A program made the position numbers and the translations under genes. Shown piece by piece: positions 1 through 64,000 of a stretch of DNA of 64,000 nucleotides. The stretch's first letter is position 1. The number at the start of each line of letters is the position of its first letter. Below the pieces are notes generated by a model. That model saw nothing but the letters and a program-made list of their open reading frames with translations, made no database searches and was not told where the DNA came from. Source of the stretch: Physcia stellaris (lineage: Eukaryota; Ascomycota; Lecanoromycetes; Caliciales; Physciaceae); the NCBI GenBank assembly GCA_018902385.1, contig JABSSW010000041.1:1-64000 (forward strand). The letters run 5' to 3'.

Positions 1-7
1 CCCTAAC
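1..7. repeat. telomere-type hexamer CCCTAA at the window edge
   Basis: The first seven bases read CCCTAAC, one copy of the C-rich strand of a TTAGGG telomere repeat plus one base. CC is almost absent elsewhere in the window and no further CC occurs before 1055, so a CCC at the very edge stands out. Read left to right, CCCTAA is the orientation expected at a left chromosome end. Only one copy is visible, so this could be chance or the last unit of an array cut off by the window edge. The helicase relic nearby supports a subtelomere. Confidence 0.4.
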
Positions 8-2090
8 TTTTGATCAGACATTGTTCATGAACAACGTCGACGTGATTTACGAAATAGTCTTCGAGTCATCACGATCTCGTAATGCGATCATGTTTGATTT
101 AAAGAATGATTTTGCTTAAATCGACAAATGCTTAAGCGATTTGCAAAGATTCGAAATCATCGAATAATTCATAGACAATCTTTATATGTTGAAATGATTT
201 GTTGATTGATTTTCAGTTCAAGATTTGAAACGTTTTCGTCATGACGCAATTCATTTTCTCGATCTGCAGACATTGAATTCGTTCATTCATGTTGATGAAC
301 ACATCACATTTTGAATTCAATCGAAACAAATGAATTTCGAAAACATGTTTCTATCTTTGAAACAACTCAATACTTTTCGAAATTTGACGATCGTTGTTCA
401 TGATAGTTTTTCAACAAATCACAAAAGATACTGTCAGCAACGAATTTACGATTATAATTCTCACAACTATCACAAGAAAAGCGTAGCGAAATATTCGAAG
501 AAAATTCGTTTTTTCATGTCTGTTGAATTGCTCTGAATGACTCACATGTCATCGTGAAATTGAATTGTTTTTTCGCATTGATATTTGACTCTCGATAGTT
601 TCGTGTTGAGTTGAAAATGAATGACGATTGACAGAAATGATGTTGTAATCAGCAAGTACATTGATAGAATTGCAAATATTGATTATTTTTCTCTTTGTTT
701 CGATCAGAAACAGCGTGACAACTTGAATGATTGTTAATGATTCGATTGTTCAAAACTAGAAAAACGCGCGACTTTGCTTGTGTTGCGCACGATAACAAAG
801 ACATGATGATTTAAATCAACAGCTTGACAACTCGAAACATTATCAATGTCATTCTGATTGTAATCGATGATAAGAACAATACTGAATTCAACAGATATGA
901 GCGATTGAATCGATGTATTCGTCAAGTTTGAAAATTTCATCTCGAATCGACATTGATGTCAGAAATTCTGATATTGATAATTTTTCGATTTTTTCTGTGA
1001 TTCTCAAGATAATTCTTGTCGTTTTACAAAATGCACTTTTCAGAATGTTCAATTCCGCGTGAAACCGTTCATAATTCAGTTTTTTCAATTTCATAATTCA
1101 GTTTTTCGACAAATTGTCAAGTTTTTCTCGTCTCATTCGATTTTCATAATTCAGTCCTGAATTACGAGCGTATTATGAATAGAATTTTCGATAAAATTAG
1201 AAATTGTCGACAAAGTGTTAATATTTGATTTTCTCGTTTTTCGCAAAAGCGATCAGCATTTTTGCTGATTATTGTTTTTGTGAATTCATTGATTGTTTTT
1301 GCATTGCGTTTTTCATTATTTTCATTCAAATCAATCGACTTTTTGAAACTTTTGTTCGTTTTTTTTTTTTCTTTCAGTTTCACATCTGGTCACATCACGA
1401 TAAAGAACTTCTTTTTTTCTGAAAGTCGATATTTCGATATCGATTCTTTTCTTAGCACGTGACTTTTTGAACGTTATCTCGCTGACGTTGCTGATGAATG
1501 AGACAGAAACAATGTTGATAATGAAGCTACGAAAATCGAATTCTATTTTATTCATAAGATTTCGACAAGATTTTGATAAAAACAAAATCGATTTTCAACA
1601 TCGAAAAATTGATCATGTTTATCATTTTATGTTTTTTTATTGTCGTGTAAAATATATGTGATTTCGATTCGAATGTTTTAAAATTAGAATATTTTTGTCT
1701 CGAGCTGATCAAAATTCTAGACGATGTTGAAATTGAGAAACTGAATTGTTTTTAACAGAGAGATATTGTTGAAAGATAATGCTCAATAAAATTAACGACT
1801 TTGAAAATTTTGCATGATTATTTTTTACACATGTAAATATCTTTTAGCAATGATTGCATAAAACACGAATAAATCATGATGCTATCTCAAATTTATCAAA
1901 TATCATCGACTCAAACTCATCAGTGAACATACTAAAACAAAAATAAACAATGTTAAATATATGTCACTATCGAAGTCGAAAAAAAGTTGAAATTAAACAA
2001 ATTGAACGAAAATTGACATACGAAAATTCGATTTAAATACGAGAGAAATATTCGCATCAAAAGTCATTTATCTAATATTTATAAAAATCA
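8..2090. other. no gene recognised; hypermutated AT-rich sequence
   Basis: I see no supported gene. Open frames here are short and show no family resemblance. The stretch has no GG or CC between 4 and 1054. A 13-base word, ttcataattcagt, occurs three times between about 1068 and 1157, as a small local duplication. Confidence 0.5.
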
Positions 2091-2099
2091 ATTCATTAA

Positions 2100-3400
2100 T
2101 TGCCTCGATGAATTTCTGTCTTCAAACAATTTTTACAGTCGTCGTTAGTGCTGTTGTTACGCAGACTATCAACAATATCAAAACAAAAATATATCAGAAT
2201 TTACAACACAATCAGCAAAACAATGATCAGTCTGATCAGTCAAAATTTTCTGATCTTTCAGATTTGTCTGATCGAAATTTCAGCATTGACAGAAGTTCAT
2301 TTTGATGTTCAGATGATTCGAACTTTTTGATTTCAAATCGTTTGCATTTTATAAATCGAATTCTGTGATTGAGCATGACAAAAATATCTATTATCGTGAT
2401 GTTCGTCTCTTTTGTAAAAAGTTCAAAAGCTAACTGTTATCAAGAATGAAAAGTTGATTTGAGTCAATTTGAATATTTGTTTTTTGACTACGCATTCGTC
2501 TGATCGATTGCAAAGTTGAACGTTTCGAATCAAGTCGATTTGTGTGATTTTTGACTTGAAAATGATTGAGTCAAGAAATTTCGATTACGTTTTAAATTTG
2601 ATCATTTTGTCGATGTCGATGTTCTCATTTCTCAGATTTTAGATGATATACTTTAGTCGAGATTTGAAATGAACGCGAGCTGTTCAGCTATGTGCAACAG
2701 ATTGTTAATTACGTCATGAATATCGATTTTCAGAACACGCGATAAAAATCAACTTAAATATGAAGAAATTTGAATTCTGATTTAAAGCGTGAAATTCTGA
2801 TGTCGAGTGAGATTATCTCGCTCGCAAATATTCTGCATATAATTAAAAACAGAAAAGAAATTTGACAAACGTTTTACATTTACGATAAAGATCAAGACGA
2901 TCACAGCGATCGAAATCGACGTTTTAATCGTCAAATCAACAAACTTAATCGACTAAACAGCAATCGTGACAGTTATTTAACGTTCGACGACATTTGCGCT
3001 CTCTACTTTTATACTATTCGTTGTTTAATTTATATCTTGCAAGTTCGACTTACGATAATCAGAAATATCAATATCGCAATTGTAATCAGCAATCAAACAA
3101 CGTCAAAGATCAGCAATATCAATCTGTTTTTATTTTTGCATCTCAGTTGTCAACTGTACGTCAGTTTTTTCGTCTAATCAGCGAAAACACGTCCGATTTC
3201 AGAAATCAGAATTTACATTCAAAAACAGATTTTTATCGTCATTTTGAAAGCTATTATATTTGTGAATTTACGCTTGTTCAAAACATCAAATCGATGATTG
3301 ATTCATATTTTCAAATTTTCTGTTATCTCGTCGCAATTCGAAATAGTTATTTCTATTCATCATGTCGTCTTTTCAGTCAGCAAGAATTTTTTACTTAAGC
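2100..3400 (+). mobile_element. Gag-like fossil of a Ty3/Gypsy LTR retrotransposon
   Basis: A Gln/Asn-rich start (from about 2108) is followed by a Ser/Asp/Leu run (2220-2290) lying where fungal Gypsy Gag proteins carry a Gly/Pro-rich linker. Then comes a block containing KNIYYRDVRLF (about 2380-2415), which resembles the conserved core that follows the linker in those Gags. A Gln/Asn/Tyr-rich tail lies near 3050-3130. I saw no protease, reverse transcriptase or integrase beside it and no clear LTRs, so only the Gag part seems to be left. It is broken in many places and heavily hypermutated, which suggests an old copy. The assignment rests on the order of the segments and one motif remembered from the family. 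Confidence 0.5.
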
Positions 3401-3599
3401 GAACTGACGATATCAAACTCACTGTATAAGCTCATTTGATGAATATTTCTATTTCAGTTATTTTGATTCGAAACAATCGAAATCAAATTATTCAAATTAG
3501 ATTTTTGCAATGTTCGGCTAAATCACATCACAGAACTAAATGTTTCAATCATTTTTCAAATCAGCGCTGACGATGTCATGAGCGTGAAATATCTGACAA

Positions 3600-4330: not shown

Positions 4331-4399
4331 TCAAATTCTATTCAGTTCGTCATTTCTGTAATAACATTCTCGTTCAGTCTGAACGAACTTTGATAATTA

Positions 4400-7300
4400 T
4401 TTCATTTTCGAATATTATCTCGATCATTATTTTTTAATTTCAATTTTTTTCACATTTTCATCATCATTTGATACATGTTTATGCTCTCATCGTGTTCGTT
4501 GATTTCAATAGTAATTCACATTGTTTCAATTCATTTCGATCGACATTCGTTTTCGCATCTGATCGCGAAATTTTTCTTGAACATGAATCAACATTGTCAA
4601 TAACTCGATTATCACATTTTGATATTGACAATGCTTTTTTTGTTTGAAAACACGCTCGTATCTTTTCACATTGCTTGTTTCAATCTTTTTCTTCACTGAT
4701 TACATCATTTTTGCGACACAAAACAAATATTACATTCTTCGTACAGTTTCAACGTTTTGTCACGTCGAATTCGCTGTTTACGTTTCTGATATTTTGTTCG
4801 AATCAAAAACAATTCTCGATTTGACAGTGAAACATGAAATGATCGCTTTCTTGCGTCTGTTCTGTGATGAAACAATATACACATCGCTCACGTAAACGAT
4901 TCAATGTTTGTCGCATGATTTGTATGTTTGCTTGCGCATTTCGAACTTTCTGTTGATGACGAATCACGATGATGTTCATGATGATGTTCTTGCATGTAAT
5001 CGAAATAACACGATTTGTTCGCGATGATGAATATTCATCTTGTGACAACATCGCATAGACGAAAATGCAATCTCGATGTTTTGATGTATTTGATATCGAA
5101 TTTGCATTTTTCGCTTTCATTGTTTTTTTATTTTCACAATTTTCACACGTTTGTTCGCTCATCTCACAGTTGTTTCGATTGATTTTGTCATTCAAATAAA
5201 GATTCAGCATCATTCGTTTGCACAACGCTTTCAAATATCTATTGATTCAGTGACGATTGATATCGATATAAAATTTGACATGATTTTTTTTTCTTTGTTC
5301 GATCTCGAATAATCATCGCTTGACTTGTGACGTCATTTCTTTTCGCACGTTCATTTTCTTGACTGTAATCGAGCAAAAATCGTAACTCATTGACGTAAAT
5401 AATTCATCGAATATGCGAAACATCAATTCTCATTTCGAACGCACTGATAACGACAATAATGTTACGTTGACTGTCGACAACAAAACGTTCGAACACGTTT
5501 GTCTTGTTTTCAATCTCGTGAAAATATGCATCACAATCAATAGATGCTGTCAACGATTGACAATCATTGATTTGATTGCTGTAAATAACTATTTTCTCAC
5601 GATCGATCAATCGATTTTGCGCTTCGCGAATGAATCGCAACAGATTCGTGTTTTGCTGATCGTCTGTACGTTCTCGAATGTGATATGTGCGATATCGAAT
5701 GTTTGTTCGCGTGATTTTGACTCGAAATATCTGAATTTCGTTGAATCGTAATCACATTTTTTCAGAAAACGCTTTTCGTCGATGAAAAGCAATGTGACTG
5801 TCAACATCACAATAGATATTCGCGTTCTGTTCAGTTCACTCAATTTTTGTAATTGAAAACGAAAATCGTATCGCTCGTTCAATACAACATGACACTCGTC
5901 AATCACAATTCGATTCAATCGCTTTTGTCTCTGAATACGATTCAGAAATCGAATGAAATCATCATTTCGAACGCTTTTCGAAATGATCAATACGATTCGA
6001 ACATCGTTTGATGAGTTTTCGTTTTTTCATTCTCGACAATCAATGTTTACTTTTCGACATCGTCGATGCAAATCTTGTCGTAATGCAATCAATGAAATCA
6101 TCATCTGTTTCAAATCGTTAATATTCATTTCTGACGTCTGTTCGTTTTACTTGACTACTTACAATGATCACGCTTTCGAATTCACAAAACATCGACAACA
6201 TAAACAATACGCTTTTGTTTTCTTCGATAGACATAACGGTTAAAATACGCGCGTGATCGACGAGAATGACTTTCAAAACAATCTTTTGCAATTTTCGAAA
6301 TTTCGCTTGTTTGTTTCATGCAACATTTGACGCAATTTCATGCGTAAATTCGTCGTTTCTAGTTCTCGTTGTCGTTTTCGTCGCTCAGATTTCGTTTTTT
6401 TTTTTCTGTTCTGCTTGCTCGCGTTTGCTTTTCGTATGCACATTCGCATTCGGAATTTGAAATTCTCAAAGACGATGTCAGCTTTCGCTGACTTTGCGAT
6501 ATTGTTGTCGTCTTTTTGTCATCTTTTCGTCTCGTTTTCGAATATTACGAACATACATCATGCTCGCAATATGCGTGTTATGTTCGACTTGCAAATTTTC
6601 AATATCGTCTTTTTTCGTTTTATCATTTAAATTTTCTTCGTCAAGCTCAAAACGTTCTTTTTCTTCTTTCAGATATCGACGACTGATGACGATATTGATA
6701 TTTCGTCATGATTGTAATGTTAATTCTTCGTCTAATTCTTTTTCGCTGATTCGTTTCATTTCTCGACTTATTCGTGTGAATGTTCATGAACGATTTCGAG
6801 CATCGATATGTCATATGTTTCATTGTCGACAAAATTTCTCGTCGCTGTTTATGTGTTGCAATGCATTTCACGTTGATCGTATTAATCACGCGTTTCATAT
6901 CAACAATGCATTCATTTCTTGAGACAAAAATCGATGAATCACTTTTTTCTGATCATTGATGTTGTATTCTTTATGATATCGAGTGATCAGTTCGATCTGA
7001 CATTTTTCAAACACATTACAATCATATTCATTCGCAAGAAACATGTTACGTTTTTGACTTTTTCGAAATTTCATTCACACATGCTCAAAAACTCAGATTC
7101 ACGCGCGTTTTGTTTTCACATTCATTGCATCAACGTGATCAATAATTCATGAAAATGATCGATCAATTCGTATCAATTTTCGCATTTGACTTTATTGATT
7201 TTTTCACGTCTGTGTTGCAATACTTTGAAATTCAGCAATCGATCATTCAATCATGTTCGTTCATTCATCGATTACAGATTTCGATCGTCTTCGACAAAAT

Positions 7301-9595: not shown

Positions 9596-9599
9596 ATTT

Positions 9600-9990
9600 C
9601 AATGATTCAGAAATTGACGATTTCAAAAGCGATTGACGTGTCGATATTAAGAAAAAAAAATCTTCAAGCGCAAGCCTTGAATTTCTAAACTCGAAAAAAA
9701 TGATTTGTATTAATATTGAAAAGTTTTGCATAAAAACATTCGAATCTTGTCGAAATGAAACTCAATCATGATTGATGATTTTCTTTTTTTCGAAATCGTT
9801 CATTTCAATTAGTCGTTTTTCTACATATTATTTTTCATATTTTTCACAATACGTTGTCGTCGACAGAATCAGTCGTTCTGTTCGTCCGAAATCATCTGAA
9901 CAAGAACAAATATTTTATACTCGTCACATTCAAAATCGTGATTGATTTTTTCTTTCGAATCGTGTTCTTATCGACAATAATAGTAACAAT
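9600..9990. repeat. direct repeat copy A (partner at 12640-13010)
   Basis: It matches 12640-13010 in the same orientation. Shared stretches include gtgtcgatattaag, tcaagcgcaagc, tgtattaatattgaaaag and tatactcgtca, interrupted mainly by transitions and small length changes. The partner sits immediately upstream, in minus-strand sense, of a LINE RNase H relic. Both copies may therefore derive from the region of a LINE preceding its RNase H domain, but no reverse transcriptase motif is secure. Confidence 0.7.
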
Positions 9991-11260
9991 AATAGTTTTT
10001 TTCATATATCGATTCGCATTCTTGCGAGCATATGCGAATTCTAACTATGACGTTTTTGTCTAAACATCGTATTATTTATAGATTAAATACAAAAACGTCG
10101 TCTCTTTTGTACGCTTGTGATTTTCAATTCGAACACTTTACAAAATCAATTTGAGCTGTACGCTTGAATGCGAGTCGCTTTTGACTGAATGTTTTTAAAT
10201 GCTCGAACTGCTAATCTGCTCGTTGATATGTTTTTTCGTCTGTTTTGTCGACTTTTGAGCGATTTGTCGAGTCGCTTTTATGACTTCTTCTGTCGTCTGA
10301 CAATGAATCACTGAAATTCTCAAATATTTCAGCTGAATCTGTCTGATCTGTCCGTTCTTCGAGAGTTTTCAATTTTCAAAAATTCGAAATCGACGATGAT
10401 AAATTTGATTATAATAAAAATCTCATCGATGCGATTGCTGAGCAACGATATCAGATCGTCGAACATTTTCACGTTCAGATAAATTCTATCGCTTGTATCG
10501 TTGTTTAATGATATCGTTCATTTCTCTGATAATTTTATTTCAGAAAACTTCAACACGTCGACGATAATGAGTGAAAACTGACTTCATGAACGACTGTGAA
10601 AGAAATCGTTTGAAATTCATGAATTGAGAAAAAAAGAATCGATTTTTTCATTTCGACGTATTTTCTGACTGAGTCTGAATACTAGTTTCGCGAAAACGAC
10701 GTTGATGTACTTTCGAAATATCGATATTAAATCACGTCAAAATTTCATGTTTATGTAAAATTTGTTTCTGATGTCGTCGTTCACAGATATCGTCGATTTT
10801 CTTTTCATTTTCGTTTCGAAAAACTTTATCACATCATCAAACGTGATGAAATCTATGTCGTGCGAGCGATTTCGAAATCATTGATCAAACATTTTGAGTG
10901 AGTCGTTCGTGACTTTAAAAACTGATGAGAAAGCGTTGTGAAAACAAGTTGAAATGATGAAAAGTGACGAAAACAACGCTGTGTCAATGACTAGATATAA
11001 GCGAAATGTGATGAAATAAAAAAACAAATGAAATGTCGAAATATGAAAATTGATCGTCTCGTAAAGTTGCTGAGTGAGAATTTAAAATGTTGCTCGAAAA
11101 TTAAGATTCAAATTGTTCGTTCAATCATTTATATTTTGAGAAATTGATTGTTTGATTCGTCTGAAAGCTGATTATTTGATTCGTTTATTCAGCTTTCGTT
11201 GCTGTGAGAATTCGTTTCAGTTTTCTGTGTTTCGAATGCAAACAATGTCGATTTCTCAAT
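9978..11260 (+). repeat. 1.28-kb inverted duplication, left arm
   Basis: This segment is the reverse complement of 21741-23028, followed by eye along its whole length with many transitions and few gaps. Clear anchors are gacgtttttgtctaaaca near 10049, tttaaatgctcgaactgcta near 10196, and ttcatgtttatgtaaaattt near 10743. The match begins abruptly near 9978, at the edge of repeat copy A. No protein family is recognised; the minus strand has a charged, Gln/Lys-rich character. It is probably one copy of a dispersed element present twice in opposite orientation. Confidence 0.8.
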
Positions 11261-12190
11261 CTCTTTTCTCGCATTCGGCGTTGATTTCGTTATTCGAATG
11301 TGTCGAAAAGTCGTCATTTCGTCTTTTGATTCAGTTTCAATTCGAATTTCTTCAATCATTTTTCAAACGAAAAAGATGTACAAAAATCTTTCACGTTCTC
11401 GATCGCGTCAATGACAATGTGCATATGAAAGCTAATTTTCACTGTTTCGTCTTTTGACATTCATTCGAGATTTGATCATGAAACATATTTCGAGAATGTT
11501 GAATCGAAATTTGTTATTTCAAAAAATTCATTCAATGTCTGTTTAAAAGTCGAAAATTTCGTGATTTGAAATTTCGACAATTTCACTGTGCAATTGCAAA
11601 ACTGAAATAACAAATCTGATTTTATCACGAATGCTGTGATCAATCTGACTAATGTCGAATTATTTGAAAACTTTTCTTTGTCAGTCACAAATCTTGTTTT
11701 GTAAATCTCGTCTTTAAGTTTTGCTCATTTGAGACATTGCAATAACACATGCTGTACGTTCTTCATTTCGTCGCAATTGCAGCGATTTGCTGTTCGCTTT
11801 TTCGATTTTATATTGTTAATTGATCAGATTGATCTTTTCGATTCTGAATTGAATGAGAACAAAAATTTGAAATTTTTCAAATTTTTGAATTTGTCTAAAT
11901 TTCTTTTCGTGAAATATTCGTACAATTTAAAAAATGTTCATTTTTGTCTGCTTTCTTTTCACTTGTTTATTCATTTTTTATCTGTTCATCGTTTAACGCA
12001 AAACATCGATGTTGAAATCAGAATGTGAATTTCGAGAAATCGAGAAACTGCATCGTCAAAGTCTTTTTTTTTTTCAGTTCGTTGTTTTTTTTGTCATAAT
12101 ATCTGTCAGTTCGTTGCTCGAAACATTTATGTGAACGAAAATTCAATGAAAAATAATGCTGTGTTTGACACAGAGTTCGCGATGTAACTT
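11261..12190. other. weak continuation of the inverted duplication, then unassigned
   Basis: Traces of similarity to the reverse complement of 21480-21740 run on to about 11460. From there to 12190 I recognise nothing. On the minus strand this would be the region 3' of the LINE RNase H relic, but no zinc-knuckle or end sequence is clear. Confidence 0.35.
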
Positions 12191-13010: not shown

Positions 13011-15230
13011 TCATCGCGAATTTATGTCAGACGACACGTCGTCAAACTTTTTCTTTTCAAATTTTGAAATGTTCAACTCAATTCTGTCGACATTGAGTAA
13101 TATTATTATCAATTTATTCGATCTTGATTTTATTCACGATTGAATGAACAATTCTCGCGTAAATGCTGCTTAAAATGTTGCAAAATCAATCGAAACTCGA
13201 AAAAGATTTTGAAAGATAATTTCAAAAATAAACATAGTTTTCTCGTCGTAGATTGTTGAAATGAGAAATCATTTGATTGATTTCAAATTTATTGAATAAA
13301 AAAGATCAGCTTGAACGACATGTAGATTTTAGAAATTTCGACATTTGAAATCGAAATATTCATGTCTTGATTCGTGAAAAGAGTTTCTGAAACAAGCATC
13401 GAGTGAAAATCTGATTGAATGCACTTGTTCATTATTGTCGATTGACAAATCAAAAAATCGAGAATGTCTTTCTCGAGTCAAAAGTCGATAATGAGAAGTT
13501 AATCAATCAAACTTTTTGAATATTTCATTGTTGATTACTGACACATTGAATGTTCATCTCGTATTTACACAAAGTTGATTTTCACAAAGAAAAAAAGTTT
13601 GCATTTTCTCACAAGCAAGCAATTCTCATGAAAATAAACAAGAACGTCTGAAATGCATCGACACTTTAGATTAAAAATTGTTGCTTTTGAACTCAAAAAC
13701 TGATGACAGTCATATCAATTGTCATGAACTTCTCATATGAATCTGATGAAATCGACAAAATTTGAAAAGAAAATTCTGATATACGACGTTCAAAATAACA
13801 ATATTGAACGTCGACGTAACTCGAACAAACGATTATTTGACATTGAAAAAATCGTTACATAAATATTGAGATATTTGAATCAACAAAGCGTAAATCTTAT
13901 TGCGACACTCAAATGTTCGAACTCGATGAATAAAACAAACAGTGTCACAACGAGTCTTTATGTCAATTCAATTTTTCATTTCATTTCATTTGCAACTATT
14001 CACAATCAAGTTTGCTTCGATTTTATTTGATTTCAATTCAAATGCGACTGTTCACAATCAAGTCTGCTCAAACTTTTCACGTTTTTCGCACTTCATCATA
14101 CGTCTGTCTCACTTGATCAAAGCGACGAGAAAAAACGAAATCGAAATTTCTCTTTTCTAACAATCAGAATCTGCTTGCATCTCAGTATTTCGATGCATTG
14201 TTTTTTTCAATCAGATGAATTCATCGAACTGTATTTGAAAAATACGACATTCAATAACTTTGACTTTTGATCGATTGTTTATATCACTTCGACTTCAAGA
14301 TTTCAAAATAAAATTCAATCACGATCAGAATTTTCAGACACAATTTCAGTATTTATATCGCATATGTCTTACATCGATTAAACTACAAGAATAAAACTTA
14401 AAAAACTTTTTTTGACTTAAAACTGTCTAGATTTATCATTTTAATCAAGTATCATGAAATTTTCGTACGACGTTTTGTCAATATTTGTCATCGACAGTAT
14501 GATTTTTCGAAAAAGCAAAACAGTCGAACTTCAAAATGATGATTTTTGAAAATCAATATCATTTTTCAGATCAACACAAACGAAATCTTTCTTCAAAATT
14601 GTCGTTTTCAGAAAACAAGAAGACTTGAAGAAATTATTTCTGTCTGTTCAAACAATGTAAGCTGAATACAGAAAATCTATCTTGACGAATCTTTTGTGAA
14701 CAAAATTATTTCAAAAGATCATGTGATTCGTATACGACAATTAAGATTGATCAATAAAATCTATCAATCGCTCAACGTCTTTCACAGCATGAAATGATTT
14801 TCTACGTTCATGCTGTACGAAAACAAAAAATCTCTGTTTTGTAAAACAAAATATGAGATGACTCATGAAAATCATATTCAAAAAGCAAAAGAAATTTTTC
14901 GATTTTGCTGAAAAATGTGTGCGAGACCTTTATTCACTCGAAATAAATGAAAAACATTGAAAAGACTCGACAACTTTAAGAGCAATCAAGCAAAATAAAT
15001 CATTTGATCATTTTTGTCATAATGTCAACATAATAATCTCTATTAAAAATAAACATACGGCAATTTCAAGTTTTCAATGTTCTAATACAAAGCAGTACAA
15101 CTTTGATGACTGTTTCGATAATAATAATGATATGTTCTGTGAAATTAAAATGACTGATTTGTACATCGAGTAAAACTTGAACGTGAATTTCGAAATCATT
15201 CGAACATGTCAGTTCAATATCAATCGTGTT
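13011..15230. other. no gene recognised
   Basis: AT-rich sequence with short open frames only. The longest (13942-14160, +) has an internal near-duplication of 'attcacaatcaagt' (about 13997 and 14051). I could not assign any family or repeat. Confidence 0.4.
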
Positions 15231-15280
15231 TGCAGAAATTTTCGTCTTCGTTGAGATTTTCGTTTCTCGCGTCTGATTTG

Positions 15281-15500
15281 CATTACGAATCAATAACTGT
15301 TACAAAACAAATGTCTTTTTTCATTTATTGCTTGTTGCTCATTACGAATCGAGATTTCGTAATCGTTACATGTTCAGTTCAATGCAATGTCAATTAATTC
15401 TAGAGTTCATTCGTCAGAAAAATTGATCGATTGAATTTTTTTTCGAAGACACGATCGACAATGTTGCGCTAACGATCGAATACATGAATGAAATAAATCG
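15281..15500. repeat. about 265-bp tandem unit, copy 1
   Basis: It carries tacgaatca...tgttaca, a 'ttattgcttgtt' block, 'cgttacatgttcagtt', and ends atacatgaatgaaataaat. Copies 2 and 3 follow with the same blocks in the same order. The start of each unit is a variable number of 18-bp 'agattttcgt...' words. Confidence 0.8.
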
Positions 15501-15533
15501 AACGTGCTTGTTGAAATTTCGATCTCTGTTGAG

Positions 15534-15715
15534 ATTTTCGTTTTTGCAGAGATTTTCGTCTTTGCAAAGATTTTCGTCTTTGCAAAGATTTTCGTCTCTG
15601 CAAAGATTTTCGTGTCTGCAAAGATTTTCGTGTTTGCAAAAATCTTCGTGTCTGCAGAGACTTTTTTCGTGTTTGCAAAGATTTTCGTCTTTGTTGAGAT
15701 TTTCGTCTTTTCGTC
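15534..15715. repeat. 18-bp minisatellite, about 10 units
   Basis: About ten head-to-tail units of the type agattttcgtctttgcaa, with variants ctttg/ctctg/tgtctg and one unit lengthened by extra T. As 18 is a multiple of 3, both strands read through it (Phe-Ser-Ser-Leu-Gln-Arg repeats on plus, Arg-Arg-Lys-Ser-Leu-Gln on minus); I take those frames as by-products. Neighbouring units 1 and 3 have only one or two copies of the word, so it expanded inside one unit. Confidence 0.9.
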
Positions 15716-15720
15716 TTGAT

Positions 15721-15947
15721 CTGATTTACGAATCAGTAATTGTTACAAGACAAATTTCTTTCTTTTTATTTATTGCTTGTTACGCATTACGAATCGAAAT
15801 TTTGTAATCGTTACATGTTCAGTTCAATGCAACGTCAACTGATTTTAGAACTCATTCGTCAAAGAAACTGATCGATTGAATTTCTTTTCGAAAACACGAT
15901 CAGCAATACTGCGCGAACGATCGAATACATGAATGAAATAAATCGAG
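15721..15947. repeat. about 265-bp tandem unit, copy 2
   Basis: Follows the minisatellite directly and repeats copy 1 block by block: tacgaatcagtaattgttac, ttattgcttgtt, cgttacatgttcagttcaat, gatcgattgaattt, atacatgaatgaaataaatc. Confidence 0.8.
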
Positions 15948-16499: not shown

Positions 16500-17360
16500 C
16501 GTTGAATAAATGTTTTGAATGATCAATTCTGTTTCAAAAAAAAAGAAATCGAAAATGATCAATTTCGATTGCTGAACAGAAATGTTGATGCAAATGATTT
16601 AAAACTCTCAAACTTTGATACGTCGAGTCGAAAAAATTCATCTTTTGTTTAATGATAATTTGAAAAAGTTCGACTCTGATTTGAGAATGATTTGAAAATT
16701 TCAAACTTTGATAAATCAAACAAGAAATGTTTATTTCTCGTCTGAAAATAATCTGAAATGATTTGTTATCAACTTAAGGTTGATTTGAAAACATCAAAGT
16801 CTGATAAAACGAACTGAAAACATCTATCTCGTGTCTGAAAATGATTCGACAAAATCTGACTTGAATCTAAGATTTATTTGAAAATATCAAACATCGATAC
16901 AACAAATTAGAAACGTCTATTTTTCGCTCGACGATAATTCGAGAAATGCTGATCTTGACGTGAGCTTGATTTGGAAATATTTGACTTCAGTTCGACAAGT
17001 TGAAAACATCTATTTCTCGTCTGAGAACAATCTGAACTGTTTCATTTTTGATCTGAAAAAATTGAAAAATGCATATTTCTGATTCGACAAACTGAATATG
17101 TTCATCACTTGTCTAAAGATAAATCGAAGTGATTTACTATTGATCTGAGAATGAATTGAAAATATTTTGTTTTGATTTGACAAGCTGAAGATATCGATTT
17201 CTCGTTTGAAAACAAGCTGAAAAATTTGATCTCGATCTGAAATTAAATTGAAATTAGTAAACTCTGATATAACAAACTAGAAATGTTCGTTTCTTGTCTG
17301 ATGATAACTTGAAAAATTTCATCTCTAAATCGAAAATGATTGAAAGATATCCAATTCTGA
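16500..17360 (-). repeat. 93-bp satellite, block 1
   Basis: Degenerate units each holding a 'tctcgtctgaaaataatctg'-like box, a 'gatctgaaaatgatttgaaaatgtc' box in variant forms and a 'gattcgacaaactgaaaa' box. Anchors fall about 93 bases apart. The minus strand tends to stay open, because 93 is 31 codons. This is the most diverged block. Confidence 0.8.
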
Positions 17361-18005
17361 TTCGATTCGTTTTAGAGTTAAAATTGTTCTTTTTTTTTCT
17401 CGACGTTCGAAACATCGACTCACGAGATCTGCTTCAACTGTTCAAACGAGTTACTAAAATCTGTGATACGTGACATGTACAAAAGAATGAAATCAATTTT
17501 GTGTTCAAATGATTATCTTCATTCAGAGCTTGTCTGATCATTTATCTGAAATATCAAAACTTAATGTTCTTTTTCATATTATTCACGCTTTTTGATGTGT
17601 GTATCATATCGACGAAACAAATATTTGATATGATCATCATGTTCGATATCGTGCATGCGTTGCTTTGAATGCCGATTGTATCAAAATCGTTGAATCAAAA
17701 CGTTGTGACTCTTGAAACAAAATCTTGAACGATCAGCACGAATTTGTTAAACGTGAAATGATCACTTCTATAAATTCGAATTCGAAAAAAACAATATGTC
17801 GAGTTGTCGTTGTCTCAATATGAATCACGTTTAAAAAACTGTTGAAAATATGTCTTCACTCTTTATATCTTTATATCTGTTCGGAAGCTGTCTTTTGAAA
17901 TCGATAAAAGACGTACAATGACTTCAATTCGCTCGAAAAAACACTTTCTGTGAAATAAAACTTAATCGTGAAGCAATTCTGATCCGAAATCGAAGAATAA
18001 TATAT
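17361..18005. other. spacer within the satellite region; nothing recognised
   Basis: No satellite units, gene or RNA recognised. It separates satellite block 1 from a fourth, isolated copy of the 265-bp unit. Confidence 0.4.
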
Positions 18006-18007
18006 CG

Positions 18008-18170
18008 TCACTACGAATCAATGATCGTAACAAGAAAAATTCTTTTTATTCATCGATTGCTTGCTACACATCTGCAATTCGAACTTTCGTGATCGTTACA
18101 CGTTCAGTCTAGTGATGTGTCAACTGATTCTGAAATTTTTTTGACAAAAAAATTGTGTCGATGAAATTTC
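18008..18170. repeat. stray fourth copy of the 265-bp unit
   Basis: tacgaatcaatgatcgtaac, a 'cgattgcttgct' block and cgttacacgttcagt match the units at 15.3-16.2 kb in the same order and orientation. It lies directly before more 93-bp satellite, so the two repeat families are interleaved. Confidence 0.65.
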
Positions 18171-19030
18171 TTCTGATGTTTATCTCTTGTCTAGAAATAC
18201 TGAAGAAATCTGAAGCTGATTTAAAATTAATTCGAAGAGAATTTACTTTGATTCGATCAACTGAAAATGTCTACCTTTCGCCTGATGATGATTTGAAAAG
18301 ATCTGATTTCGATCGAGTTTGATCTGAAAATGTCGAAATCGAGTAAAACAAACTGAAAACGTCTATTTCTTGTCTGAAAAGCAATCGAGACGCTTAATGA
18401 TGCAAATGATGCATTACAAATCTCGTATCATACTTGTGTCAACTGATGTCTTGTATTTTATCGCGAAAATTCTGTCATGAATTTCGGATTAAAGCATTCG
18501 AACGTTCTGTAAAATTGAAAAATATCAAGATTATTTGCATCACACATATTATCAATACACATCATATTTACAACTTCTACGTCGTATCAAATCAATTGAT
18601 GTGATACGACAAATGATTCAAACTATACGAACTGTTCGAGCTCGAAATCGTGATGCATCGAAAGTGCAAGTAAATAAATGCACTTGTGAGCGCCTTGTTG
18701 AAAATAATCTGTAAAAATCTGAATTCGACGTGAAGACGATTTGACGATGTTAAACTCTGATAAAAAAATTGAAAATGTCTATTTTCCGCCCGAAAATAAC
18801 CTGAAGTGATCTATCGTCGACTTGAAAATGATTCGGAAATGTCTAATTCTGATTCGATGAATTATAGATGTATATCTTTCGTCTGAAAATAATCTGAAAA
18901 AATCTGATTTCGATCTAGAATTGATTAACAGATGTCTATATTCAATCTGAGAAGTTAGAAATATCAATCTTTCGCCCGAAGACAATTTGAAGAAATCTGT
19001 TTTCGACTCAGAAATGATTTAGAAACAATC
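18171..19030 (-). repeat. 93-bp satellite, block 2 (interrupted)
   Basis: Satellite units at 18171-18400 and 18690-19030 flank about 290 bases of unrelated sequence. Units near 18780 and 18970 keep 'ttttccgcccgaa' and 'tttcgcccgaag', with CC intact, so this part seems less mutated than its surroundings. The minus-strand frame 18985-18779 reads through with a DFFRLFSDE-type repeat. Confidence 0.8.
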
Positions 19031-19430
19031 ATCTTCGATGTGATAAGATGATGAAATTCGAATCACGTCTCAAAATGATTGAAAATCGATCGACTGACTC
19101 AGAATGCTGAAGCAATGAAATCAAATTGCAATGATTGAAACTTGACGCGTCTACATAAAGACAATTTTCGTCTTTCTTCTTTTCGAGTTTCTGATTTCTG
19201 CATCTTTCGTCTCTTTTTTTCCTCATCTATTCACGTTTCAATGATCGTTTTTTTGCGTATCAACCTCACTTCGACCGAAAATCCTGTCGCATAAATAGAA
19301 GAAATTTGTTTCTCGACACAATGACAATTTCAATCGAAATCGTGTTGTTTTTTCGCAAACTACTACTCTTGTTAAAAAATTACTGCTCAAACAATCATGT
19401 ACATAATATGTTTTAGCAACAGAGCAAACG
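19031..19430. other. non-satellite gap in the array
   Basis: No gene recognised. A minus-strand Lys/Arg-rich open frame (19226-19029) has no family resemblance. The stretch keeps several CC and GG words near 19260-19290. Confidence 0.4.
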
Positions 19431-21488: not shown

Positions 21489-21782
21489 ATGACTGTAACG
21501 ATCGTTTTCGTTTCGATATTTCGTCACGATACAAAAACATCTTTTCTTGTTATCGACGATATCTCACAGTCAGCTGTCAAGTCTGCCGAAAATATAAACT
21601 ACTTTGATTTTGATTATGAAAATCTGTTCGACACAGATCGAATCCTTATTAGTTTGAAAAGACACAATTTTTATCGTGACATTTTCATCTTGACTGATCA
21701 TCGAAAGAATCGAACAAAAACATTCTTTGATTTTAGAATGATGAGAAATCGACATCGTCTGCGTTCGAAACGCAAAAAGTGA
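21489..21782 (+). pseudogene. 97-codon unassigned frame at the edge of the inverted element
   Basis: An open frame of 97 codons, acidic in the middle (FDFDYENLFDTDR) and basic at the end (RNRHRLRSKRKK). Its last 40 bases already lie in the region duplicated at 9978-11260, and weak similarity extends over the rest. I do not recognise a family. Given the heavy mutation of the region, an intact gene is unlikely; it is probably a surviving stretch of the element's gene. Confidence 0.35.
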
Positions 21783-45420: not shown

Positions 45421-45426
45421 TTTTAG

Positions 45427-46047
45427 ATGAAATATATCATTCATTTTGAGTTGCATTTTCAAACAACTCGACTCGTCGAAAAAGTTTCACATGAAATCGA
45501 TCGTCAATCGCATACGAAATTCTCATTTTTTATGACGTTCTGTTTCAAGAAACTTAAATCGGCGTTTCGTTCGAAACATTCTTTACAAATTACAATTCGA
45601 ATTTCGAAGAAATCAAATTTCAAATTTGAGTTGTTGTCGTTTCACTCGCCGTTACTGAGACAATTTCTGTTGATTTCTTTTTTTTCGCTTATTGATATGC
45701 TTAAATTCAGCGAATATTTTTATTTGATTCGAAATCAATCATTGTAAAATGTAAGATTGTTTGATCGACACGCAGCGAAAAACTTGCAAAACGAAATGTC
45801 AAAATTTTGTTACGTTTCAAGTCTCATTGAATCGTCACGAAATTGCGAGCACGTCGCGAAAACGAAATTCAATATCAAACAATGCTTGAGAATTGCAATG
45901 ACGTTCGAACAGACATGTTTTTCGAAATATCAAAAAACGCAATGTGCGTTCAAAGATTCGATGATTCACGAAATTTTGCAATTCACATTATTTATCGCAT
46001 TTCGTTGCGTTTTTCATCGATGTCAAAATCAAGAAATTCGTTGTTGA
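45427..46047 (+). pseudogene. nearly open 207-codon frame, unassigned
   Basis: This is the longest nearly open frame in the window: 106 codons, one TAA at 45745-45747, then open again in the same frame to 46047. That stop could come from CAA by a single C-to-T change. The first part is basic (MKYIIHFELHFQTTRLVEKV). The second part is Cys-containing (CEHVAKTKF, QCLRIAMTFEQTC, FRCVFHRCQ). A second forward frame over the same bases is also long (45843-46085), so coding status is uncertain. I do not recognise a family and see no start signal that decides the issue. Confidence 0.35.
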
Positions 46048-49000
46048 AAATTTTAATTATTATAAATTTATTCGAACGACACTGATAACAGATTTTGCAT
46101 GAATCTTTGACGAATTAAAAATGTAAATTTTTCGAAACAAGCTCGAAACTCGTCAAAGCAACATAAATATGTAAACACGAATGAAAAATTGAAATCGATT
46201 AAATTTCGTCTCTCGATAATGATTTTTCGCAAATTTCGCGTTTCGCGTTTTTTCGAAATTGAAACGCGATCGATCATATTTCAATTTCAATTCATGAATC
46301 ATCGTTGTGTGATTTGTGAATCGCGATCGTGTTGAAATCGCGACTGCAAACGATAAAAAACTTTCGTTTTTTTTTTTCAACAATTGAACGATGACGTCAA
46401 CAGAAAATTGACAAATTATTATTTAAAATCGTTAAGATATCGATAGACGAATTTTTCATTTACGAAACATTTGATTTCATTTATTTTTAAATGATATCGA
46501 TCATATCTTAATTTCAAAATGTTATTCAAAGAAATCGTCTGATGATGATTTGTGAATCGAAAAATTAATTAATTAACATAACGATTGTTGATTGAATTTC
46601 ACGCGTTTTTCAACATCAATCAAGCGTCGTCTGATTACAAAAAGCAACAGACTTGTTTGTTCAAAACTTTCTATATATACTGATAACGAAGTTGAGTATT
46701 TCGTATCAATCAAACGACATTTTGTTACGATTTTTACTTTTTTTAAATGATCAAGTTTGATCAACTTTTCGATTTTGAATGATCGTTGTCGATTTTCTGA
46801 AATCAATTCGAAAATTTCACTGAATCATTCAATCGATAGTAACGACGAGCGATGTGTACAAAAAACAAAAACGTAATCAACGCAAATTGATGACTTGCGT
46901 TTATTAAACATTTCTCGTTGAAAAACAATAATTGCAATGTTTTATTCTCAGCACGACGAAGATTAACAAGATTATTCAAATCTTTCGATCAAGATGATGA
47001 ACTCGTTGTTTCTGTCAATGTAACGCGCTAAAAATCAATTAGCAAAAATCGTTCACGATAAAAAAACGAAACGAATATGAACGATTGAAATGATGATGAG
47101 TTTGACATGTCGACGTGTGACGCGTGAAAACGATGATCGATTTTCGCATGTTCGTCGCAATTGATTGCAAAAAGAAAAATTGACGTTTGCGCGACGTGCG
47201 TTTTCGTCGCAAATTTCGCGACAAATGTCTATTCTGATTTGCATGTTCGTTCGCTCGCGATCGACAGAAAAATCACAACGTCATGACGCGATGAATTTTG
47301 CGATGAACGCGTGAGAACGAAAACAAACAATCGCGCATGATCGCGACGATTTGCAAAAAACTATAAAAAGAAATGATTTGTTTGACTTTATTCGGAAAAT
47401 TTGAACAGTTTGACAAACATAGAAACGATTTTTTCGTTCGACGAATCAATCAAACATTTCATATTTCATCATCGACGAAATGACGTTCAAAAAGAAATCT
47501 GTTCAAAAACAAAATTGTTGAAATTTTTTTTTTTTGTTCATCAAAATCATTAACGCGATTCTTTCAACTTTGTCGATTTTTTTTTTGAAAAACAGAATTC
47601 TCGACGCTTGTTTGATGAAATGTTCGATAAATGAATTCTGAAATTCTCGATCGTCGAACGATTGAATTGATGAAAAATTAACGTTTTCGCGAATTTCGTT
47701 TCATTTTTCTTTGTCATTGTCGAATTTTCTGTCGCGTCGTTTGTTTTCGTGATTTCATCACGCTTTTTCTTTTTTGTTTCAAATTCATTTTCGACGAAAA
47801 AGCGTCGTCAACGTTGCTTTTGAATATCGAGTCGATCACGAGCAACTCGTAAAATTCGTGAAACTCGATTTGTTGCTCGATTTGTTGACGAAATCGTCAA
47901 CGTGATTATCGTCGTGATCGACATTCGAAATGTTTTCGACTTTTTTCTTTTCACATTCGTCGCGATCAATCTTTTCAAATCGTCAAAAACGATCGAGTCG
48001 AATTTGATTTCGAGAAATCAGACGAAAATGTCGAAAATCGCAAAAAAAATGTGAATGATCTTGACGTCGAGAATTGCACGACGCATTTTTGATCGTTTGA
48101 TCGACGAATATTCGACGAACGTCAAAGATGACGAAATTTCAATCGTCATCAGCAACGAATTGAGTTGCTGACTCGTCGACACATATTCGAAAAAAAAGCA
48201 TCGATTATCGAGTCGTCAAATCGTTTCGCGACGTCGTGATGAAGAAAAGAAACGAATCGTCGAAAAAACGCGATCAAAAACAAACGATGCATCGTCTCGT
48301 CGTGTTGATTTGACATTCAAAAAAGAACTTGCGACGATTGCTGTTCGAAAACAACGAAATTTCTCATCGTTGTCATCGAGCGACGTGTTTTCGTCCGGAT
48401 TATATTGTGATAAAAAAGCGCGATTCAAACGAAAATCGCAAAAATTGCGTTTTAATCGACGCGTGTTTTGTGCGAAAACGCGATCAAATGCGTTTTTTAA
48501 ATGTTTTTGGCAATCGTCAGACTTCGAAACGATTTCGTCAAACGTGAGAACGAAAATTCGCCGAAAAGATTGCTGAAATGAATATGATGTGTAAATAACA
48601 TGTAGAAAAATCAAAACAAAATAAAAAATGAAATGAAATGATCAATGTACGTATCGTGCAATTCAGAACATTTAAAAACATCACAAATCTGTTATTGTCT
48701 CAAATTTTCATCGATTTGAATCGATAATTTCTCTAAAAAGTCAACGATCAATCAAAATCGATCGAATTATTTAACAAATTAAAATCTCGTTCGTTATCGC
48801 AATTAAGCAAACAAATCACTTCATCAATTAAAAACGAAAATGCATTATCATCTTTGAAATCAAGAAAAAACTTTCAATTTGTCAATTCTTATCAAATCTG
48901 AATTTGATGAATTTTTTCGTGTTGAATCAAATTAAATCGCAAACTTCACGTTTGATAATGTTTTTTCGTCAATATTTTTAAGTTTCAGTCTTGCGATCAT

Positions 49001-52000
49001 ACTTTTCTCAGAACTCAAAGACTTTGATTTCTCGTAAAGTGTCGAACGAATCAAAATAATAACATCGTTCGATTTTTAGTCGACATAATTTATGATTAAG
49101 ATTACGACGATATTTGCGTATTTTTTCATTGAGCAATCAATAAAATTCGACTATATTAAAAACGATTTTCGAAAAAATCGCTCATCGACATTCAATCTGT
49201 AAATTGAGTTTCGAAAAATTTGATTGTGAATCGATCGAAGAAACAATTCTAAACAGTTTCATCAATTTATCAGTGTGATCAATGACAACAAAATTTCGAT
49301 TAGTTTTTGCTTTAAACGATCAAACATCTGTATCGTTTTCGATTTTCTAATTTTCGTTTCTTGATTAATGAAAACATTCTTGACGAATGCTTTCGCAATA
49401 ATTAGTTTTCAAAAAATTCAAGAATTTCATTTCTGACAATTGAATTTGCAAAATCGTTAACAATTTATTCAAAAAATGTGCAAGATTTAGTTTACACTGA
49501 CGTTTTCGACTATTTCTATTAATCATTACGACGATTTTAAAAATCAACAAAATAAAATCACACGTTCTATTTTATTATTTCATGCTAATGTATTCGAGCA
49601 TATGTTTGCTTTGAACATTTTAATTTTTTCAAAGTAAAAGTTCTGATTTCTCAACACATTCAATGAAAAGCATGAGATTTTTCAAAAAAAAAAATTCGAT
49701 CGAATCAATGCACGCGATGAGACGAATCGAACAATCAAATTCAAATTTCAATTACGAGCTTTTTAATTGCAACAACTTTAATATACGCTATTGAAGCTGA
49801 AATTATCGCGACTGTTGATCACTGTGAGAAAACGTTCGCGAAACGATTTCGTTTTCTATTCAAATTCTGATGTTGAGAGATTGATATCGACATGACGACG
49901 AGATTAGCACGTATTTTCAATGCATTGCAAGAACAAAACATCGATAATCAAACGCGCGTTCAAACAGAAATCACAAAGTTTCAGTCACGAGATAGAACAA
50001 GTCGCAATCTGTCTTTTTTCGAGTCGAAAATCTCGCAGACGACAAGCGTTCATTAAAATCGTTTCTCGAATTCGAAGATTTTGAAGAGACTTGTCGCTGA
50101 CGTCAACAGCAAAAATTTTCTTTTTCGTTGAAACATCGTTCATCAAATTTGTTTTTCAATTGTTTTTCGATAAAATATTTACGTCGTTCTCATTTCAATT
50201 ACAAGATTCAAAAGAGTTTTGTATCAGTATTTATTGTCATTTGACATATTGTTAGCGATTGCAGAATTTTTCTGAATTGACATGAACTTATTATTTCTTC
50301 GTGTCGAGATTGAATAATTTGCGCGTTTGCTGTCTTTCTTGAATGTGATAGTTTGCAAAGATACACGTTAATTGAAAATTTTACGAAAAAATTTGAAAAG
50401 AAAAAGAAACGTATCGTTTTTTAAACTTTCTTTTCGAAATCTCATTTTTATGATTCGTTATTCGTTGTCATCATGATAAATCATTACTCTATTATCGAAA
50501 ATTGATAAAACAGAAATTTGAATGAATTATCGCCGACGCAAAATCATGCGATTCGTGAAATTATTATGAATCAATCGAAAACTTCGAAAAGCATTGATTT
50601 TTTATCTAATAAATACATCTTTTTCGAAGTCGAAGTTTTTAACATGTATTAACTTTAGAATTATCACGATTATTTCATGTAGTAAAATATTATCAAATAA
50701 ACGATAATTGATTTAATGTCGTCGTCGCTCGGATTTTTCCAGACGAGAAATTATATTTCAATCGAAATCAATCGATCAATTGTTTTGTAATCGTTGAATC
50801 GAATTTTTCGACTGCGAATTGATCGAACATCGATCGCTCAACAATGTTCGCACGAAAACAATGTTGCGAATGAAAATTCGCTGAAAAAAATGAAATAGCT
50901 CATATAAATCATTCGCAATTTCACAATATAATTGTTTATACTTAAACATGCATGATTTAATTTTTGAAACAAACATATGACTATTGACAAAATCAATCAA
51001 ATAACTATTTTTATCGACACAAATCGAACAGACGAGTTATGTGATCGTCGAAATCTTTCGACAGAAAATTTAAAATTGTTGTTTGATTGAAAATCGATCG
51101 AAATCGAACGTTCAACTCGCAAATATATCGAGATCAACGTCGTCGAAAATTTTCGAGCTATTCAATTGTTCTCACTGAATTTCTCAAGAAACGATTCGTT
51201 TCAGAACAACGTCGAATTCGTCAAAGTCATTTTGTCGTTTGCGACATGCGTTTTCGAGTGAAAAATATCAGTCACTCGTCACGTTTCGAAAGACGAATAC
51301 AAACTTCGATCGATTTTCAAATATTTCGAGAATAATGATGATCATCGATCAAGCATTCACAAACTTTTTCAATGTTTGCGAGTAAATATTTACAAATTTT
51401 CGATAATTTGATCGCGATCACAAAATCGTTCGAAAACAAATTGCAACAAACGATCAAAAACGATTGATCGACATTCGAATCGAAAATCTTGAAATTCATG
51501 ATTGAAAAATTCTCGATTCACGATTGACGATTTGTCGACTTGAAAACGATGTGTTCGACAACGATACAGCATTGTCGAGAAAAGAAAAAATTCATCAAAA
51601 TTCTCGAAATTTCCGTGTCAAGACACGTGATAAAGAAATCACGTTCGATTAAAACGCGACATTTTTTAACGATGATTTGAACATTCACTCTGTTAAAATG
51701 AAAAATTCAAATGTCGCTAAATTTGTCGTCAGCGAAAACTCATTAATTGAATAATATGATCGTTCGTCATCGATGAATTTCGCGAATTCAAATGTTTCAA
51801 AATTCTGTTAAAACGATGAAAACATTTGATAGTCGCTAAAAAGTTATCAATTGTTTTCTATCAACACATCGTGTGACGATTGAAAATTGCGATTAAATTT
51901 TCGAATCATCACGTCGCGACGATGAAAATTCAAAAACTTTAAAAACATTTACGAAATCATATTCGTAATCTGAATGAATGAAACAAGACGCTCGAACAAA

Positions 52001-57260: not shown

Positions 57261-57304
57261 AGTTCATCGCATGAAGCATTTTCTCTTGTGAAACGACTTT
57301 ATAA

Positions 57305-62090: not shown

Positions 62091-62094
62091 GATA

Positions 62095-62549: not shown

Positions 62550-62910
62550 ACTTGAATCAAGTTCAAATTTTCAATTCAATTTCAAAGTTTGATTTGATCA
62601 AGTTTCAAACTCAACTTTGAAACTTGCATTTGATTTGAAAATAACTTCATATATTAATTATAGTATAGAATTTTCTTAAAATAGAAAATTGTTGATAAAT
62701 GCATTACTTTTCTGCATTACTTTTTCTTCAAACGTAGTGTTTACTTCAAATTTCAATATTTAAAAAAATCAAGTCAAGTCAAGCAAATCAAGTCAAGCTT
62801 CAAATTCGATCACAAAGTTTGACTTGATGTCAAAACAAATTTCAAACTCAATGTTCAAAGTTTGATTTGATTTTTTCGAATCAAATTCTTGATTTTTTCA
62901 AGTTCTCGAC
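62550..62910. repeat. self-complementary 'caagttt/aaacttg' repeats with AAGTC run
   Basis: Dense words of the type caaagtttgatttgatcaag and their reverse complements alternate, so the stretch can fold on itself. A pentamer run, caagtcaagtcaagcaaatc, lies near 62770. Compact, and unlike anything else in the window. Confidence 0.65.
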
Positions 62911-63350
62911 TTGACGCGATCAATTTAATTATTATTATTGTCTATATCAATGCAATCGTTGTTTTTCTTGATTTATTATGCAAATAAAATTTCTTTGATT
63001 TTTTTATTCTATATTATCTTTCAATCATCAAATTCTCGTACGATTAACATTAAACAATATGTCGTGAAATCAATTCGAATTTTTGCTCGATCGAACGATG
63101 AAACTTGTCAGTCTTTCATCGAATTTTTTTTTTCTCAATCACGTTTTTCTCGACGCGATCTATTTATGCGCTCGCACGTTTGAACGATGAAAATTTCAAA
63201 TCTCGTGTCTCATATGTAATCATGTCTTTTTCGTTGATTTCTAATTTTTTGTCTTTTGTCTTGTTTGTTTAATCTAACATTTATCGCGTAAAAATTTCAA
63301 ATCGTTCATAACTCAATGAATACATTGAAAATTGCATTCGGATTTGAGTT
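62911..63350. other. no gene recognised
   Basis: An 81-codon plus-strand frame (62938-63183) begins with a hydrophobic stretch but has no family resemblance. Nothing else seen. Confidence 0.35.
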
Positions 63351-63354
63351 CTGA

Positions 63355-63770
63355 TCTATCGAACTGATACAATATCAACGAAATCTCGAAACTTGATGAA
63401 AAGCTCGAAATACAAAGACTTAAAATTCTTTGTAAAATCGATCGTTGATTCGATCGAGTTTCATCATTTTTTTTAATTGCATTTCTTGCATCGATTTCAG
63501 TTTTGATTTTGAAATTTTCTCACGCGTCAGATTCATTGAGAAGACAATACGATATCAACAGAAATCTCGAAATTCGATAAACATTTCGAAAAACAACAAT
63601 TCAAAATCCGATATAAAATCAATCGTTGATTCGATCAAGTTCAATCTTATCACGTTTCAATTGCAAATTCTGCGTCAATTGCCAAATCGATTTCAGATTT
63701 CTCATACATGAATCTTTTGTCGACAAATCGATACGATATCAACGAATTTCCGAAACATAGTAATTGTCTA
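63355..63770. repeat. 170-185-bp satellite, three monomer starts
   Basis: 'gatacaatatcaacgaaatc' (about 63367), 'aatacgatatcaacagaaat' (about 63546) and 'gatacgatatcaacgaattt' (about 63730) are about 178 and 184 bases apart. Each is followed by 'tcgaaa', 'aaaatc.at.gttgattcgatc' and 'gatttcag'. These give the clearest measure of the monomer length. Confidence 0.8.
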
Positions 63771-64000
63771 TTTCATCAATCGCTCGTTCGATGAAGACGT
63801 TTCGACTGTAAAAATAATTCAAATTCTTTGATCGATTGTGCAAAACTGTTTTCGAGATCGAGCTGAATTTCAATTTACGCTCGATACGAAGTTTGATAAT
63901 TTTCTTCTCGAATTTCTATGACACGACATCGCGAATTTCGTCAACGCTATATCAATCGTTTGTATATCGAACAAAAGAAATCGTGATCGTGAATTGTGTT

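Follow-up and report, generated by a model that had tools for sequence, protein, structure and literature searches.

Repeat-induced point mutation (RIP) of fungi is described by the base 3' of the mutated cytosine, whereas APOBEC-type deaminases read the base on its 5' side. The order of preference is reported as CpA>CpT>CpG>CpC in Neurospora crassa (PMC5496416; similarly PMC10170752) and CpA~CpG, followed by CpT and then CpC, in Trichoderma reesei (PMC5496416), while the repeat-associated C-to-T hypermutation of Microbotryum and other basidiomycetes targets CpG with an effect of a 5' T. We analysed the first 64,000 nucleotides of contig JABSSW010000041.1 (hereafter the window, 64 kb), in which nearly every CpC that can be inferred and about half of the CpT have turned to T on both strands, with CpA and CpG spared.

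CpT is not new as a target. A study of ten genomes reports CpA, CpT and CpG signatures, CpC not being among them, and the CpT signature in transposons of Botrytis cinerea, Sclerotinia sclerotiorum and Magnaporthe oryzae is linked there to a RID motif (PMC4352252); in those species, however, CpT goes with CpA, whereas in the window CpA is spared and CpC leads. In RIP-capable control fungi, CpT also dominates where LARD retrotransposons were aligned (PMC7882544), and it is reported from Tad1 and from short ribosomal DNA (rDNA) repeats of S. nodorum (PMC2621366), and Monacrosporium repeats keep CpA (PMC3828140). The RIP-mutated ribosomal RNA (rRNA) pseudogenes of ascomycetes share with the window the C-to-T and G-to-A mutation of rDNA but are led by CpA, since CpA/TpG is hit most, although in N. 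crassa CpT takes a bigger share (PMC5555474), and a k-mer screen of 1,239 fungal species concluded that RIP-like defences share a preference for CpA (PMC12543289). In the open-licence literature searched in full text, as far as the available portions go, a CpC-led RIP was not found, the nearest case being Table 2 of a study of Rhizoctonia solani AG8, where CpC is the closest-spaced C<->T class (214 bp vs 370 for CpG, over the whole genome) in spacings that are not corrected for abundance, although the authors report a CpG bias (PMC4014442). R. solani AG8 is a basidiomycete in which the C<->T sites are heterozygous, affect genes and repeats alike and are far from completion (PMC4014442). What is new is that CpC leads while CpA is spared.

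The original prediction, made from the sequence alone, had described a near-absence of GG and CC with CG, CA and TG common, and dinucleotide counts over positions 1-64000 bear this out. The window holds 109 CC and 53 GG (162 sites, 2.5 per kb), corresponding to a symmetrised CC/GG odds ratio of 0.055; all 32 two-kb bins are CC-poor (rho CC 0.00-0.19), and CC/GG starts at positions 1 and 2 and next at 1055, so that the predicted gap from 4 to 1054 is exact. Odds ratios are raised for CG (2.44), TC/GA (1.59) and CA/TG (1.18) and lowered for CT/AG (0.60) and TA (0.41); TA had been called not raised, which is true but understates its depletion. The window is AT-rich (GC 25-35% per 2 kb). The share of C among pyrimidines is 0.5-11% before C, depending on the next base, and 15-21% before T, as opposed to 44-64% before A or G (the rare CGG/TGG class set aside), suggesting from composition alone that both CpC and CpT were lost. 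The CpG odds ratio is the opposite of what decay by deamination of 5-methylcytosine at CpG leaves behind (CpG loss, with TpG and CpA gain), and that candidate was rejected on this ground. Of the residual CC on both strands, 100 of 162 precede G (CCG), more than precede any other base.

Substitutions could be counted directly in a mutated 18S-5.8S-28S unit that Rfam places on the minus strand at 41133-51003, comprising a 28S (large subunit, LSU) relic with intron-like inserts (41133-45737), a full-length 5.8S relic (45899-46052) and an 18S (small subunit) relic with six inserts (46704-51003). As rRNA is strongly conserved, it is usable as a stand-in for the unmutated ancestor, and three references were employed: (i) the Rfam consensus at conserved positions; (ii) an intact fungal rDNA (L002), a contaminant in a Planomonospora assembly (BMQD01000062.1) that we read as Saccharomyces (yeast-like); and (iii) a fungal 5.8S with internal transcribed spacer (ITS) sequence (L001) at the end of contig JACMMA010000039.1, from an Armatimonadota metagenome-assembled genome. 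An exact search of viral contigs with a 48-base pattern from fungal 5.8S gave no match. For the 28S relic, scoring was limited to consensus positions in upper case whose 3' neighbour is also in upper case, up to position 2784 of the LSU model, giving 989 conserved positions of which 335 are C or G with a conserved 3' neighbour. C had become T at 86 of 93 CpC (95% confidence interval 0.85-0.97), 56 of 109 CpT, 2 of 76 CpA and none of 57 CpG, the difference between a 3' pyrimidine (CpY) and a 3' purine (CpR) having a Fisher p of 1e-42. The strands agree, with 34 of 36 CpC changed in the sense and 52 of 57 in the antisense orientation. Ten pieces, most of which adjoin inserts or lie at truncated ends, had been excluded by hand (183 positions in all); on their own they give CpC 14/20, CpT 11/16, CpA 0/13 and CpG 2/13, and when they are added the totals become 100/113, 67/125, 2/89 and 2/70, respectively. 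Three of the four CpR changes adjoin inserts and the fourth adjoins a variable base. C-to-T change on both strands, a nearly complete loss of the first C of CpC and the sparing of CpA and CpG had thus been foreseen correctly, but the proposed CpC-directed rule is too narrow: CpC leads, yet CpT is a real second target, and the rule is therefore CpY (CpC > CpT >> CpA, CpG). Conserved A/T positions of the 28S relic had changed at only 12 of 537 sites (23/626 with the excluded pieces), and such slight decay at a time when about 90% of CpC is gone indicates fast mutation rather than slow drift.

Comparison with the yeast-like rDNA (18S, 5.8S and the 28S 5' end) gave the same order, with CpC changed at 232/262, CpT at 166/287, CpA at 24/280 and CpG at 16/208 sites, the CpR counts including real divergence between species; alignment without tolerance for C>T yielded fractions of 0.84, 0.54, 0.06 and 0.08. 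The intact 18S of this reference carries 118 CC+GG per kb, compared to 1.9 per kb in the relic 18S interval. The 5.8S relic taken alone has turned to T at CpC 13/13, CpT 9/12, CpA 0/24 and CpG 2/24 against the yeast-like reference, and at CpC 10/10, CpT 12/16, CpA 2/26 and CpG 2/22 against the fungal 5.8S of the Armatimonadota contig. Aligned blocks of the yeast-like comparison shorter than 8 were dropped for the tallies and those shorter than 12 for a logistic model, which further drops four positions per block edge and C->A/G changes. In this model (896 sites) the +1 base has a likelihood ratio of 537, while no further position between -5 and +5 exceeds 4.3 once the +1 base is included, the -1 base standing at 0.4. 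The tally by 5' and 3' neighbour, which the original prediction had named as a check, therefore finds the CpC preference and no detectable effect of the 5' base. CC pairs (n=261) have become TC in 139, TT in 90, CT in 10 and other pairs in 20 cases, 2 remaining CC.

This one-sided dependence bears on two explanations that invoke damage or deamination outside RIP. UV-type damage to an exposed organism, for instance a lichen, would change C to T at dipyrimidines, and CpC and CpT are both dipyrimidines, but a 5' pyrimidine should then be hit as well: pyrimidine-C-purine has changed at 16 of 230 sites vs 171 of 228 for purine-C-pyrimidine, at conserved LSU sites TCR and CCR together have changed at 1 of 84, and the 5' base adds nothing beyond the likelihood ratio given above. 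We regard UV as extremely unlikely. The CC context is that of APOBEC3G, and APOBEC3G/AID-like deamination of single strands could on that count be considered; however, APOBEC3G changes the 3' C of CC, yielding CT, and in the window CT is depleted and TC raised. In addition, the second C of CCR has changed at 12/113 sites against the yeast-like reference and at 0/42 conserved LSU sites. Deamination of this kind is hardly credible. A third possibility, that bisulfite- or enzyme-converted reads entered the assembly, would produce large-scale C-to-T change with some contexts spared, but conversion gives either C>T or G>A per molecule, whereas the 5.8S relic intersperses 10 C>T and 14 G>A within 154 nt, and it would require fully methylated CpA; we consider such an artefact very improbable. 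With the context set by the 3' base and with APOBEC and UV, which depend on the 5' base, failing, we infer a process of the RID/DIM-2 type.

A genome-wide mutational bias or drift against CC/GG, acting on genes and repeats alike, would account for a deficit that is even over 64 kb and present in every 2-kb bin. The sarcin-ricin loop is universal in ribosomes, and in the 28S relic (41480-41495, minus strand; read by eye against the universal sequence) it reads AGTACGAAAAAAATCG, with GAGA and CC altered and changes only at CpY sites. Paired bases tell the same: among 76 of 86 G-C pairs of 28S helices, those with other changes having been dropped, we observed AT 32, AC 8, GT 10 and GC 26, and the expectation if strands mutate independently according to the +1 base is AT 25.7, AC 11.5, GT 5.5 and GC 33.3. 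The pairs thus behave much like independent strands (GC 26 vs 33.3), with no clear sign of compensatory change in these 76 pairs. A functional AT-rich rRNA was rejected for these two reasons, the changed universal sarcin-ricin sites and the lack of clear compensation. The rRNA copy looks dead and, as it is changed at universal sites, we infer that intact copies containing CC/GG must exist elsewhere in the organism. Since in addition CpC has changed at 86/93 sites vs 12/537 for A/T, i.e. much faster than background, a genome-wide bias is unlikely.

On the assumption of independent hits, the 28S counts put the relative rate of CpC at 2.59, that of CpT at 0.72 and that of CpR no higher than 0.055 (~3.6 : 1 : <0.08). 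The +2 base has no visible effect on CpT (CTA 37/61, CTC 36/71, CTG 37/56, CTT 56/99). The signature is present in the rDNA, in a helicase relic described below and in dispersed repeats. The closest repeat pair, 32361-32549 and 35329-35517 (both plus strand, 92% identical), shows C/T differences at CpT 10/15, CpA 1/33 and CpG 0/14, and the pair 15224-15501/15667-15946 (15224-15946, plus strand, 85% identical) at CpT 22/30, CpA 4/35 and CpG 5/38. In 15 of 15 pairs of at least 74% identity, some of which share copies, the fraction of differing sites is higher at CpT than at CpA or CpG, and CpY is the most variable class in older repeat pairs too.

We consider it likely that these patterns were left by a RIP-like mutator of methyltransferase type, its preference for the 3' base inverted, acting in a silent, repeat-rich region, probably of a filamentous ascomycete. 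The mutator would be a DNA methyltransferase-type enzyme of the RID/DIM-2 kind, probably active before meiosis on repeats (rDNA and transposons), in which recognition of a 3' purine would have given way to that of a 3' pyrimidine; repeated rounds would have left CpC near saturation and CpT half used.

Several observations weigh against this reading. The 1.3-kb inverted repeat formed by 9977-11258 (plus strand) and 21742-23027 (74% identical) differs at CpT 107/141, but also at CpA 37/164 and CpG 56/172, along with 95 transversions, and pooling of 115 repeat pairs gives fractions of 0.78 for CpC, 0.71 for CpT, 0.45 for CpA and 0.46 for CpG. We read the CpA/CpG differences of diverged pairs as older divergence, but an additional CpR process may have acted on older repeats in the past. 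Along the window, loss of CpC and loss of CpT show only a weak correlation (Spearman 0.29, p 0.02). For RIP a strand-wise action is reported, whereas at CpT sites neither strand-runs nor clustering were seen, same-strand concordance within 20 nt being 173/326 and opposite-strand concordance 164/312, with 0.51 expected by chance; the missing runs fit many rounds of mutation. Finally, ordinary, index-positive RIP is present in at least one lichen-forming fungus, Endocarpon (PMC3897900). Another lichen paper relied on GC content (PMC12542154).

Two further alternatives concern the nature of the enzyme rather than the pattern. Non-specific deamination of C in repeats, with repair or protection limited to CpR, would leave the same trace, as a CpY-reading mutator and a CpR-reading protector cannot be told apart by sequence. 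CpA would then have to be protected as well as CpG (2/76 and 0/57), the gradation CpC > CpT needs an extra assumption, and we know of no repair preference of a CpR-only kind, making this explanation quite improbable. A mutator unrelated to RID/DIM-2, i.e. another methyltransferase or a deaminase that reads the 3' base, draws support from the two published orders (N. crassa and T. reesei), both of which rank CpC last (PMC5496416). On the other hand, RIP contexts already differ among species (CpA, CpT, CpA~CpG), so that a shift within the family is simpler than a new enzyme; we hold the unrelated mutator to be possible but doubtful.

The likeness of the preferred RID/DIM-2-type mutator to RIP of N. 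crassa, which depends on RID and DIM-2, lies in C-to-T change on both strands, in a context set by the 3' base and in AT-rich, dead repeats. The difference is in the order (CpC>CpT>>CpA, CpG in the window) and in TpA, which is lowered here rather than raised. The C:G to T:A change of canonical RIP is thus found on both strands, whereas its preferred site, CpA, is left almost intact (2/76). RIP of T. reesei, seen in crosses, likewise combines C to T with a species-specific context, in a different order. The basidiomycete type likewise shows repeat-associated C-to-T change, but in the window CpG is changed at 0/57 sites (2/70 with the excluded pieces), TCG at 0/17, and a 5' effect is absent. The forecast that the process would be unlike both CpA-type RIP and the CpG/TpCpG process of Microbotryum therefore held.

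The helicase relic lies on the minus strand at 5239-7191 and is of RecQ type, with motif-like texts altered at GG (CpC) sites. Both motif texts quoted in the original prediction were recovered, SIEENKS at 6211-6231 and QENERAKRND at 5332-5361 (minus strand). In its C-terminal part the relic is similar to RecQ-family helicases, with a best E of 1e-4 in the PDB, and Pfam returned matches to Helicase_C (E 0.0044) and to DEAD (E 3.6e-4) that fall short of the Pfam cut-offs. The claim that Trp codons had become TGA is weakly supported. With TGA read as W, the window has 30 stop-to-stop frames of at least 250 aa, compared to 5.15 on average over 20 dinucleotide shuffles. For frames of at least 150 aa, however, the counts against shuffles are 6 vs 0.8 with all stops, 132 vs 66 with TGA as W, 28 vs 12.3 with TAA read and 11 vs 1.35 with TAG read; as every stop set tried yields more frames than the shuffles do, the excess does not single out TGA. 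The longest start-to-stop open reading frame of the window is at most 143 aa, and ARAGORN found no tRNA in the 64 kb. Pfam searches of 20 of the 83 read-through frames gave no match at the curated cut-off. One frame (33982-35103, minus strand) contains text resembling C2H2 and weakly matches DUF3435, a domain that occurs in fungal Starship/Crypton recombinases, at an E of 0.0067 that misses the cut-off, and the read-through text at 11290-12126 (minus strand) resembles by eye the C-terminal end of a LINE-type element, with no Pfam match at E<=1.

The window opens with CCCTAAC (1-7), a fungal telomere unit and the sole CCCTAA on either strand in 64 kb. The start of the contig may be a chromosome end, which would place the region in a subtelomere. 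The RecQ-family relic lies near this end of the window, a position like that of the telomere-linked helicases of fungi. A diverged satellite of ~93 bp at 16593-20434 lies where CC+GG count and CT index are highest in the window, perhaps after fewer rounds of mutation; the odds ratio of 0.19 found there (18-20 kb) is equalled at 28-30 kb.

The six inserts of the 18S relic (those of at least 30 nt) range from 50 to 1627 nt, the longest lying at 47029-48655. The shortest may be variable regions. The inserts sit at what we take to be plausible group I intron sites and are possibly group I introns; the Rfam group I intron families gave no match in 41000-51200 at E<=5. A pattern search for the 18S 3' tail found no match, and a possible tail was then recognised by eye in two pieces (46455-46468 and 46217-46235). 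The 5.8S relic presumably resembles that of Pezizomycotina, e.g. in GTTCGAACGTCA, and the start of ITS1 seems similar to that of Lecanoromycetes; together with the 18S inserts this is a weak clue that hints at a lichen-forming fungus.

The standard RIP indices score TpA gain and CpA loss (cut-offs TpA/ApT >= 0.89 and (CA+TG)/(AC+GT) <= 1.03), and with values of 0.31-0.56 and 1.17-1.51, respectively, all 16 four-kb bins score negative on both, despite the loss of ~90% of CpC at conserved rRNA positions. We think it probable that the region records a fungal genome-defence mutator of strict 3'-pyrimidine specificity, which would reverse the orders published for N. crassa and T. reesei, be it a RID-like enzyme of altered specificity or another enzyme; index surveys would score its lineage as RIP-negative. 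By the genetic code, mutation at CpY leaves the codons CAA, CAG and CGA without conversion to stops, and TGG would be the sole sense codon turned into a stop (TGA), a consequence of the rule that the frame test leaves unproven. An inverted specificity would offer a handle on which part of a RID-type protein selects the base beside the C, and would also bear on whether RID itself is the mutator.

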